A stretch of DNA of 64,000 nt from assembly GCF_013141825.1 (NCBI RefSeq), contig NZ_RZNH01000004.1, positions 124,531-188,530 of the forward strand. The letters run 5' to 3'. The translations under genes were made by a program, and so were the position numbers. Source of the DNA: Marinifilum caeruleilacunae. GTDB lineage: Bacteria > Bacteroidota > Bacteroidia > Bacteroidales > Marinifilaceae. The notes beneath the pieces are model-generated. The model did no database searches and was not told where the DNA came from. It saw nothing but the letters and a program-made list of their open reading frames with translations. This document shows positions 41,760-44,431 of the stretch, piece by piece; the stretch's first letter is position 1; each line of letters opens with the position of its first letter.

Positions 41760-43010
41760 TTAGTCTAATTTGTGAATTAACAAACCTGAACGAAGCTTAG
41801 GCTCGAACCAAGTTGTTTTTGGAGGCATGATGTTACCAGTGTCAGCAATATCAATTAACTGTTGCATAGATACAGCGTACAATGCAAATGCTGCTTTCAT
41901 ATCACCATTGTCAACACGTTTTTTCAACTCACCTAATCCACGGATACCACCAACGAATTCTGCACGTGTAGTCGTACGAAGATCTTTAATATCAAGTAAG
42001 TTATCCAATACGTGGTTAGAAAGGATGGTTACGTCAAGAACACCAATTGGATCTTTATCATCGTAAGTTCCTTCTTTAGCATTCATTTTGTACCACTTTC
42101 CTTCTAAATACATAGAGAATTCGTGAAGTTTAGCTGGCTTGTAAATCTCTTCGCCCATGCACTCTACTTCGAAAGTTCCTTCTAGCTTTGCCAAGAACTC
42201 TTCTGCAGTCATACCATTCAAATCCTTTACTACACGGTTGTAGTCAATAATTTTCAGTTGGTTATCTGGGAAGTGAACTGCCATAAAGTAGTTGTACTCT
42301 TCGTCGCCAGTGTGGTTTGGATTCTTAGCAGCGAACTCATCACCAATACGAGCAGCAGCAGCTGTTCTGTGGTGACCATCAGCTACGTATGTTGCAGGAA
42401 CTTTAGTTGCGAACAACTCTTCCAACTCTTTGTTTGTAGCTGCATCGTTTACTGGCCAAAAATGGTGACCGAAACCATCTTCTGCAACGAAATCGTAAGT
42501 AGCTTCTTCGTTTTTAACGATGTTTTCAACAATAGCATCGATTTCAGGCACTGCTTTGTACGAGAAGAATACTGGCTCTAAGTTAGCCTTAGTGTAACGA
42601 GTTAAGATCATACGATCTTCTTCTTTGTCTGGACGAGTTAACTCGTGCTTTTTAATTACACCTGTTTTGTAATCTTCACAAGCAGCGTTAGCAACGATAC
42701 CGTACTGCGTACGACCGTCCATTGTTTGAGCATAGATGTAGAATTTAGCTTCTTCATCTTGCTTCAACCAACCTTTTTCTTGCCACAAGTTGAAGTTTGA
42801 AACTGATTTTTCATATACTTCTTCAGAGTGAACATCAGTTCCAGCAGGACAATCAATCTCTGCTCTTGTAATGTGTAATAAAGAACAATCTTTACCTTCA
42901 GCCATTTGAGCAGCCTCTTCTGAATTCATTACGTCGTATGGAAGACATGCTAAATCCTTAGCGATATCTTTAGTAGGGCGCAAGCCTCTGAATGGTTTTA
43001 CTATAGCCAT
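41760..43010 (-). CDS. DUF1015 family protein of the serine operon
   Basis: 416 residues. The DUF1015 landmarks are IVKPFRGLRPTKDIAKDLACLPYDVMN at the start, the R-P-DKEEDRMILTRYTKAN stretch (~118-136) and the TYVADGHHRTAAAARIGDEF motif (~204-223). The family is regularly found next to serA/serC in Bacteroidota and Clostridia; a role in serine metabolism (some members act as phosphoserine phosphatase-like or serine kinase-related) is unproven. Last gene of the serC-serA-DUF1015 block, separated from serA by a four-helix-bundle cassette. Confidence 0.85.
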   Translation of the reverse strand: MAIVKPFRGLRPTKDIAKDLACLPYDVMNSEEAAQMAEGKDCSLLHITRAEIDCPAGTDVHSEEVYEKSVSNFNLWQEKGWLKQDEEAKFYIYAQTMDGRTQYGIVANAACEDYKTGVIKKHELTRPDKEEDRMILTRYTKANLEPVFFSYKAVPEIDAIVENIVKNEEATYDFVAEDGFGHHFWPVNDAATNKELEELFATKVPATYVADGHHRTAAAARIGDEFAAKNPNHTGDEEYNYFMAVHFPDNQLKIIDYNRVVKDLNGMTAEEFLAKLEGTFEVECMGEEIYKPAKLHEFSMYLEGKWYKMNAKEGTYDDKDPIGVLDVTILSNHVLDNLLDIKDLRTTTRAEFVGGIRGLGELKKRVDNGDMKAAFALYAVSMQQLIDIADTGNIMPPKTTWFEPKLRSGLLIHKLD

Positions 43011-43057: not shown

Positions 43058-43090
43058 GTGAATTAGTGATTTCGTGAATTTGTAATATTG
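43058..43090 (-). repeat. Left inverted repeat of the IVP-like cassette
   Basis: Four tandem 8-mers: GTGAATTA, GTGATTTC, GTGAATTT, GTAATATT, then G. It ends directly at the stop codon of the four-helix-bundle gene (43091). Compared with the reverse complement of 43475-43507, 29 of 33 bases match (26 of 29 in the outer part). Confidence 0.85.
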
Positions 43091-43456
43091 TTATTTAGAT
43101 TCCAGTTTCTTCTCCAAATATTTCTTATAACCCGATGCCATTTTAGACAAATCAGTTAATATTTTTCGAATCTCATCATACTGATTTTGATCAATATATT
43201 TCTGTTGCAATGCTATTTCAGAACACACCAAACATTCACGAATAGAACCTTTTGATGTTTTCAGATATTTTAAAGACAAGGGTATTGTCTCCCCATATCC
43301 CTCTCCAATATTTAAAGCAACAGAATTTGCAGCTCTTCTATATTGATTTGTTAAACCAAACCTCTCATCATTTGGAAAGTGTTTCGTTTGGTTATAAACC
43401 ATTTTAATCATTTCCAATGATTTCTGATAAAGATCTAATTTTTCAAAATCAAACAT
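43091..43456 (-). CDS. Four-helix-bundle protein of the 23S rRNA IVP (S23) family
   Basis: 121 residues, all helical. Family landmarks are FEKLDLYQKSLEMIKMVY at the start, LTNQYRRAANSVALNIGEGYGE in the centre (~35-56) and SKGSIRECLVCSEIALQQKYI (~69-89), with a lysine-rich end (KYLEKKLESK). Members were first seen inside intervening sequences of 23S rRNA genes in spirochaetes and others, and related bundles (Avd) assist diversity-generating retroelements; the orphan members have no established role. It has a weak TTG-N16-TAATTTTG promoter that falls inside the right repeat. Neither an rRNA gene nor a reverse transcriptase lies nearby. Confidence 0.88.
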   Translation of the reverse strand: MFDFEKLDLYQKSLEMIKMVYNQTKHFPNDERFGLTNQYRRAANSVALNIGEGYGETIPLSLKYLKTSKGSIRECLVCSEIALQQKYIDQNQYDEIRKILTDLSKMASGYKKYLEKKLESK

Positions 43457-43474
43457 TTAATAGCTGTAAACTCC

Positions 43475-43507
43475 CAAAATTACAAATTCACTAAATCACA
43501 AAATCAC
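43475..43507 (-). repeat. Right inverted repeat of the IVP-like cassette
   Basis: Read on the minus strand: GTGATTTT, GTGATTTA, GTGAATTT, GTAATTTT, then G. Inverted copy of 43058-43090. The promoter-like TAATTTTG of the four-helix-bundle gene is part of it (43475-43482). Confidence 0.85.
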
Positions 43508-43510
43508 GAT

Positions 43511-44431
43511 CTAGTTTACTTTAAAAGTTGTATCTCCTTTTTCGATACAGTTCACAATTTGGTTTGCACCAGCAATACCAGCATTGATATTTGCTTCGGC
43601 AGTTTGTGCACCCATCTTTTTAGGTGTAAAGAAGAAGCGGCCGTCAAATTTAGCAGCAATCTCATCTTTACAATCAGGAGCGATATCAGAAATGTAAGCG
43701 AAATCTTTGCGATCTTCCATTAATTTCATCAATCCTTCTTCATCAATCACCTCTTTACGAGCTGTGTTTACAAGGATACCCCCTTCTGGCATCTTGTTCA
43801 ACAAGTCATAATTGATTGATTTTTTAGTCTTATCGTTAGCAGGAATATGCAAAGAAATATAGTTACATGTGCTATATAATTCTTCTACAGATTCTACTAC
43901 TTTCACACCATCAGCTTCGATTGCTTCTTTGGCAACAAATGGATCGAAAGCAAGAACTTCCATTCCAAAGCCTTTCGCAATTTCGCCAACGTAACGACCT
44001 ACGTTACCATATGCATGGATACCGATTTTTTTCCCTCTAAGCTCAACACCAGCTTTTCCATTGTAACCGTTTCTTGCTAAGAATACCATCATTCCTAACA
44101 CCAACTCAGCAACAGCGTTTGAGTTCTGTCCTGGAGTGTTCATTGCTACAATTCCTTTTTCAGTACAAGCTTCAAGGTCGATATTATCGTATCCGGCACC
44201 TGCACGAACGATAACCTTAAGATTTTTAGCAGCTTCAACAACTTCACGTGTTGCTTTATCGCTTCGGATAATCATAGCATCCACGTCAGCTACAGCAGCC
44301 AATAGATCAGCCTTATCAGTATAAGATTCCAACAAAGCCAACTCGTAACCTGCGCCTTCCACAACTTCTCTGATACCATTAACGGCGGCAGGAGCAAAAG
44401 GCTTTTCGGTTGCAATTAATACTTTTGTCAT
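43511..44431 (-). CDS. serA: D-3-phosphoglycerate dehydrogenase, short form
   Basis: 306 residues, D-2-hydroxyacid dehydrogenase family. First step of serine synthesis from 3-phosphoglycerate. Substrate-binding part with VIVRAGAGYDNIDLEACTEKG; NAD-binding Rossmann loop KIGIHAYGNVGRYVGEIAK (~137-155, with AYGNVG in place of GLGRIG); catalytic Arg in ILVNTARKEVIDEE and Glu in the downstream segment. The usual catalytic His of TPHxGAxT is replaced (FFTPKKMGAQT has Lys), as in other Bacteroidota SerA proteins by memory. No ACT domain, so no standard serine feedback. Follows serC. Confidence 0.9.
   Translation of the reverse strand: MTKVLIATEKPFAPAAVNGIREVVEGAGYELALLESYTDKADLLAAVADVDAMIIRSDKATREVVEAAKNLKVIVRAGAGYDNIDLEACTEKGIVAMNTPGQNSNAVAELVLGMMVFLARNGYNGKAGVELRGKKIGIHAYGNVGRYVGEIAKGFGMEVLAFDPFVAKEAIEADGVKVVESVEELYSTCNYISLHIPANDKTKKSINYDLLNKMPEGGILVNTARKEVIDEEGLMKLMEDRKDFAYISDIAPDCKDEIAAKFDGRFFFTPKKMGAQTAEANINAGIAGANQIVNCIEKGDTTFKVN

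Follow-up and report, generated by a model that had tools for sequence, protein, structure and literature searches.

An S23p/IVP gene between inverted octamer arrays at the serA/DUF1015 junction of Marinifilum caeruleilacunae, a candidate intervening sequence outside 23S rRNA

The cassette between serA and DUF1015

The window is the whole stretch of DNA that was analysed, 64,000 nucleotides of Marinifilum caeruleilacunae contig NZ_RZNH01000004.1 (positions 124,531 to 188,530 of the forward strand). On its minus strand, between the genes serA and DUF1015, a small ORF of the IVP/S23p type is enclosed by two arms, with the features listed here from upstream to downstream.

43511..44431, minus strand: serA (2-hydroxyacid dehydrogenase), the upstream neighbour; profile match, position kept in relatives
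43475..43507, minus strand: upstream (5') arm, degenerate octamers in an inverted array; length 33 nt, period 8, 88% complementarity with the downstream arm
43091..43456, minus strand: IVP/S23p four-helix-bundle ORF, 121 aa; PF05635 E = 2.2 × 10−26, TIGR02436 E = 2.2 × 10−25, PDB 2gsc E = 1.3 × 10−13
43058..43090, minus strand: downstream (3') arm, abutting the IVP stop codon; arm complementarity, tandem repeats
41760..43010, minus strand: DUF1015, the downstream neighbour; PF06245 E = 6.7 × 10−110

A sequence-only reading had placed the gene at 43091-43456 between inverted repeats at 43058-43090 and 43475-43507. These coordinates are confirmed, as are the contact of the left repeat with the stop codon and the end of the right repeat 3 nt from the end of the serA ORF (43511). 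Its identification of a four-helix-bundle (IVP-like) protein also holds, with clear matches over the curated cut-offs of both PF05635 (23S IVS protein, S23p) and TIGR02436; among solved structures, 2gsc is related to the window IVP, and 2rld weakly so. Absent from that reading is the make-up of the arms, which are tandem arrays of degenerate octamers, inverted relative to each other, with 384 nt in between. TRF gives period-8 runs at 43058-43080 and 43475-43507, and the arm word AATTCACTAAATCAC, with up to 2 mismatches allowed, has 4 matches in the 64 kb, all within the two arms, while shuffled controls had a mean of 0.39 matches and a largest count of 2.

The terminal inverted repeats are able to form a stem, as those of an intervening sequence (IVS) do, and folding prediction has the arms pair in the cassette RNA at −122.4 kcal/mol (z = −5.97). 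BLAST with rRNA flanks finds no 23S flanks around the window cassette, and locus L004 has no rRNA match; since an IVS is defined as an insert in 23S rRNA, the cassette is a variant of the IVS and not a member of the class. The phage collection gave no match at E = 1 × 10−4, and phage carriage was rejected on that result.

Occupancy of the junction and of other sites

The cassette stands at serA/DUF1015 in 3 of the 6 genus genomes (G000, G002, and G005), and the look for empty sites in close relatives that the sequence-only reading had proposed finds cassette-free junctions in G001, G003, and G004, where a spacer of 117 to 119 nt is in place of the cassette. The same reading had put the serA-DUF1015 gap at about 50 nt without the cassette, which is right as arithmetic, but the real cassette-free junctions are longer and hold two hairpins. 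These hairpins are predicted for the spacer RNA of G001, and of G012 and G016 from other genera, at −27.7, −23.8, and −28.1 kcal/mol, with z between −5.9 and −6.6 for the three spacers. The cassette therefore replaces something and is not a mere addition, substituting for about 80 nt of other sequence, and no target duplication is evident by eye at the junction.

The 11 nearest named relatives of the window IVP (56-93% identity, the best being two records at 93% on the amino acid level; G005, G002, and G021 are included again as 3 of the 11) all lie at serA/DUF1015 in several genera, with Marinifilum, Ancylomarina, Marinilabiliaceae, Mariniphaga, Draconibacterium, Prolixibacteraceae, and others represented, and with the DUF1015 side alone visible in L210, which meets a contig end. 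On this shared position a freely hopping cassette was rejected, and with it the free mobility earlier proposed for the unit. The insert is at the same place in many relatives, though not in all, and the window cassette is neither freely hopping nor fixed. Inverted arms reach the threshold in 6 of the 10 testable named relatives at this junction, with none in L210 and L211 (score 16). The IVP ORF of L217 is broken early, and the G010 copy is frame-broken.

In a tree of serA plus DUF1015, G002, with the cassette, and G001, with the hairpins, are sisters (support 0.997). Where G001 differs from G000 and G005, G002 has the G001 letter at nearly all the sites listed, and the nearest discriminating ones lie some 64 nt ahead of the serA stop and near nt 60 of DUF1015, closer sites being uninformative. 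Because G002 shares G001 letters on both flanks, the exchange between cassette and hairpins was limited to a short tract. At this site the ORFs of the three congeneric cassettes are about 90% identical, with no pair closer than another, which places the donor outside the sample.

The source genome has four PF05635 genes, each flanked by inverted repeats, and the four arm sequences are different. The sequence-only reading had turned on whether its repeats recur around the genome's other IVP genes or are absent there; inverted repeats are indeed at all four, but their sequence is not the same. One common repeat for all IVP genes was rejected on these differing units, and neither the ends common to copies by which a MITE or transposon is recognized, nor the shared ends that one trans-acting enzyme had been supposed to use, are evident among arms that vary between cassettes. 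In the genus and its near kin, 16 stretches were chosen for arrays of such units, and 15 of them hold arrays, mostly direct, that have no IVP gene. Inverted octamer arrays at L196:522-554 and 1868-1900 (G002) surround a 384-aa ORF that is not an IVP, and L187, L190, and L201 hold solo 7/8-mer array clusters, some of which set two unlike units tail to tail without an intervening gene.

Other junctions of the genus also change their contents. At site A, two unlike cassettes (53-55% aa identity) lie between flanks of 87-96% identity, one kind being nearer (62-63%) to a site C cassette; at site C, the G003 and G002 cassettes share 53%, and the G010 cassette resembles the G003 one by eye; at site B, G002 holds a 66-71% relative on the opposite strand. 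With unlike cassettes at all three sites, the junctions are homes with a replaceable tenant. A DNA-level mobile cassette of the MITE kind, in which an IVP gene between terminal inverted repeats depends on a trans-acting enzyme for its movement and favors operon junctions, would account for these unlike or reversed tenants, for presence and absence among congeners down to a sister pair that differs, and for the inverted identity of the arms, whose agreement over 60 cassettes is 0.86 in register, at most 0.68 one unit off, and 0.27 at other shifts. We nevertheless consider it doubtful, given four arm sequences on the four cassettes of one genome, 11 nearest named relatives all at one junction, about 80 nt replaced with no clean addition, and a target duplication that is not evident by eye.

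Flanks and neighborhoods of IVP genes elsewhere

At least one IVP match is present in 116 of the 148 genomes of the phylum sample. The census of flanks took 30 of the 31 matches in the six genus genomes and 90 of the top-scoring matches of the phylum sample, a non-random selection by score and genus in which orthologous genus cassettes are each counted, giving 122 ORFs in 120 loci, with 120 ORFs having full flanks. Inverted-repeat flanks were found at 62 of these 120 (20 of 30 from the genus, 42 of 90 from the phylum), often as 7/8-mer arrays with units differing from those of the window cassette, against 0 of 118 in controls offset by 400-600 nt and 30 of 2000 drawn cross-locus pairs; the other 58 of the 120 missed the threshold. 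The minimal cassette of an IVP gene plus inverted repeats, as first proposed for the window, is supported. Tandem periodicity is strong, at 20 of 24 positions, in 24 of the 120 upstream flanks and in 14 of the 120 downstream ones, at lags of 7, 8, 14, 15, and 16 only, with 1/119 and 1/119 in offset controls and 0/120 and 0/120 in shuffles. Of 59 arms with a lag of 7 or 8 (19/24), 37 have an invariant AG and 5 an invariant CT (read towards the gene upstream).

To look at other phyla, all 22 plasmid records with an IVP match were taken, 20 of them cyanobacterial, one from Gemmatirosa, and one from Azospirillum. The best lag is 7, 8, 14, 15, or 16 (at least 19/24, one flank) in 20 of the 22, an uncontrolled set, and inverted arms at the same threshold are found in 11 of the 22, near copies included. 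In the cyanobacterial plasmids L285, L289 (cas6-IVP-cas4), and L288 (cas10-IVP-cmr3), a same-strand S23p gene sits between CRISPR-associated genes, and short tandem arrays adjoin it in all three; by eye, the L289 arrays look direct and not inverted. The Azospirillum S23p ORF is inside a 23S rRNA gene, the only one of 218 IVP loci with 23S flanks when its rRNA flanks are used in BLAST. Its arms are 36 nt, 86% complementary, and 397 nt apart, with heptamers visible by eye, which is the same build as the window cassette at 33 nt, 88%, and 384 nt. This insert, together with the recurrent inverted flanks, makes the window cassette look like an IVS-type element outside rRNA, and its build supports the notion of an RNA-level insert that the sequence-only reading had offered.

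For orientation, 163 of 209 IVP ORFs are flanked within 600 nt by a called ORF on each side, by crude ORF calling. Of these IVP ORFs, 119 run along both neighbors, 16 run against both, 24 lie between converging and 4 between diverging neighbors, and the IVP is 3' of a co-directional ORF in 143 of the 163; background pairs of adjacent ORFs are also mostly same-strand (359 versus 101 different). A motif selected a further 65 loci from more distant relatives (L218-L282), in which some MAG labels may be binning errors since the flanks of L276 and L274 are nearly identical. In 57 of them a tRNA or tmRNA gene is within 300 nt of the IVP, and 92 of the 93 tRNA/tmRNA neighbors share its strand; no census locus (0 of 120) has such a gene within that distance. 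Such genes are on both sides in 33 of the 57, with 25 of the 57 arranged as tRNA-Ser/IVP/tRNA-Pro, 6 between tRNA-Val and tRNA-Pro, and 6 beside tmRNA; several have almost no spacer, and inverted arms reach the threshold in only 14, being GT-rich in those displayed.

The tRNA-Ser/tRNA-Pro synteny and the long-term synteny at serA/DUF1015 are what one would expect of an ordinary small operon gene with arms that are spacer repeats prone to slippage, retained as a stem that serves mRNA stability or autoregulation, and with no behavior as an element. Heptamer copy number would agree with that too, as it varies upstream of the orthologous genus cassettes L049, L053, and L055 (about 11, 9, and 3, by eye). 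This explanation is unlikely because cassettes are replaced at the same junctions by hairpins and by unlike cassettes, because inverted flanks recur at many unrelated IVP sites, and because S23p is found inside rRNA too.

Over 83 cassettes, sense-RNA G-U pairs at arm mismatches number 113 versus 115.6 expected, which is no enrichment, and the antisense G-T wobble class is in excess at 165 versus 127.2 expected (per cassette, 33 versus 19). With the sense-strand wobble test negative, RNA pairing as a selected property of the arms is unsupported. Transitions make up 36.7% of 561 arm mismatches versus 57.4% of 1691 ortholog substitutions (p = 8 × 10−23), and this low share suggests that the arms may be rewritten by units more than by point mutation. 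At the serA site, arms match better within a genome (median 31) than across groups (19.5, maximum 41; n = 9, with grouping by label). An RT-linked element of the DGR/Avd kind, its arms written by an RT in trans and the IVP serving as accessory protein, would suit these last two results and the family relation to Avd (NF033474, E = 8 × 10−6), but it is very improbable, with an Avd equivalog score of 26.1 bits against a cut-off of 80 and with serA and DUF1015 as the two ORFs adjoining the IVP.

Intervening sequences and related systems

Our preferred reading, to which we give a probability of roughly 0.55, is that the cassette is an S23p/IVP-type IVS living in a protein operon and not in 23S rRNA. 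As judged from sequence, its anatomy, site behavior, and orientation appear to fit an IVS resident in an mRNA operon, and RNA processing would be the best mechanism for it. The cassette would be transcribed from upstream together with serA, and its arms would pair in the mRNA and be cleaved by RNase III or an enzyme like it. This cleavage would part the serA message from that of DUF1015, a role that the resident hairpins might also play. The S23p protein, a relative of Avd, would bind its own RNA. Short-tract recombination at this junction would occasionally carry the element from one strain to another, and its arms would be renewed in place, with no need for selection to keep them as a perfect stem.

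IVSs are usually regarded as a peculiarity of 23S rRNA, and no context has been assigned to the many orphan "four helix bundle" genes. The related genes in tRNA clusters and other operons suggest a widespread class of transcript-resident elements, and should the orphans prove to be this element residing in other transcripts, the family would gain a common and testable anatomy of arms, site kind, and orientation. A wider proposal, which we advance tentatively, is that S23p elements with inverted 7/8-mer arms may form one large class resident in 23S rRNA, tRNA operons, tmRNA surroundings, and cas and protein operons, with arms rewritten in place as matched pairs by some copying process, and that the heptamer repeats of Cyanobacteria and Bacteroidota may be such arms or their remnants; if so, there is a concrete suspect for the origin of those short repeats. 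That S23p genes should be tied to inverted arms of short units in rRNA, tRNA, and protein operons alike would surprise a specialist, and nothing in the accessible portions of the open-licence literature links S23p with inverted heptamer arms in settings other than rRNA.

The window IVP belongs to the orphan "four helix bundle protein" genes (PF05635, TIGR02436), and the IVP genes here show inverted 7/8-mer arms, operon junctions, and tRNA clusters, a context that the portions of the literature at hand do not describe for the orphans. STRR are counted among the heptamer arrays of this kind. In the sections available of one report, such arrays (TAACTGA) are published for Beggiatoaceae, Cyanobacteria, and Bacteroidetes (PMC4679880); like ours, they are short, intergenic, tandem, and sporadic, with no known mechanism, and those sections make no mention of S23, intervening, four helix, or 23S, whereas the arrays here are inverted about an S23p gene. 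Avd of diversity-generating retroelements, by the excerpt available (PMC10053308), is of a related fold family, and the window IVP is unlike it in a model score far under the cut-off and in adjoining ORFs that are not RT.

The closest comparison is the 23S IVS, which in the part of the source at hand (PMC4990558) has 428 or 444 nt with a 28-bp terminal stem, carries tandem heptamers in variable number preceding the S23p ORF, and forms stem-loops standing in place of small tetraloops. Within the scope of that part, the likeness extends to the S23p/IVP ORF, terminal inverted repeats of about 28-36 nt, a total of about 430-450 nt, tandem heptamers next to the ORF, occupation of the place that a smaller hairpin has in relatives, and an occurrence that is sporadic but site-faithful. 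Unlike the 23S IVS, the window cassette lies between two protein genes and has arms of AT-rich octamers, and RNase III cutting is putative here. The heptamer stems of P6b in the Nostoc trnL intron, as given in the available text (PMC4476775), have no internal protein gene and lie inside a group I intron, but they too are paired degenerate heptamers in an RNA stem, replaced repeatedly as a block, as here.
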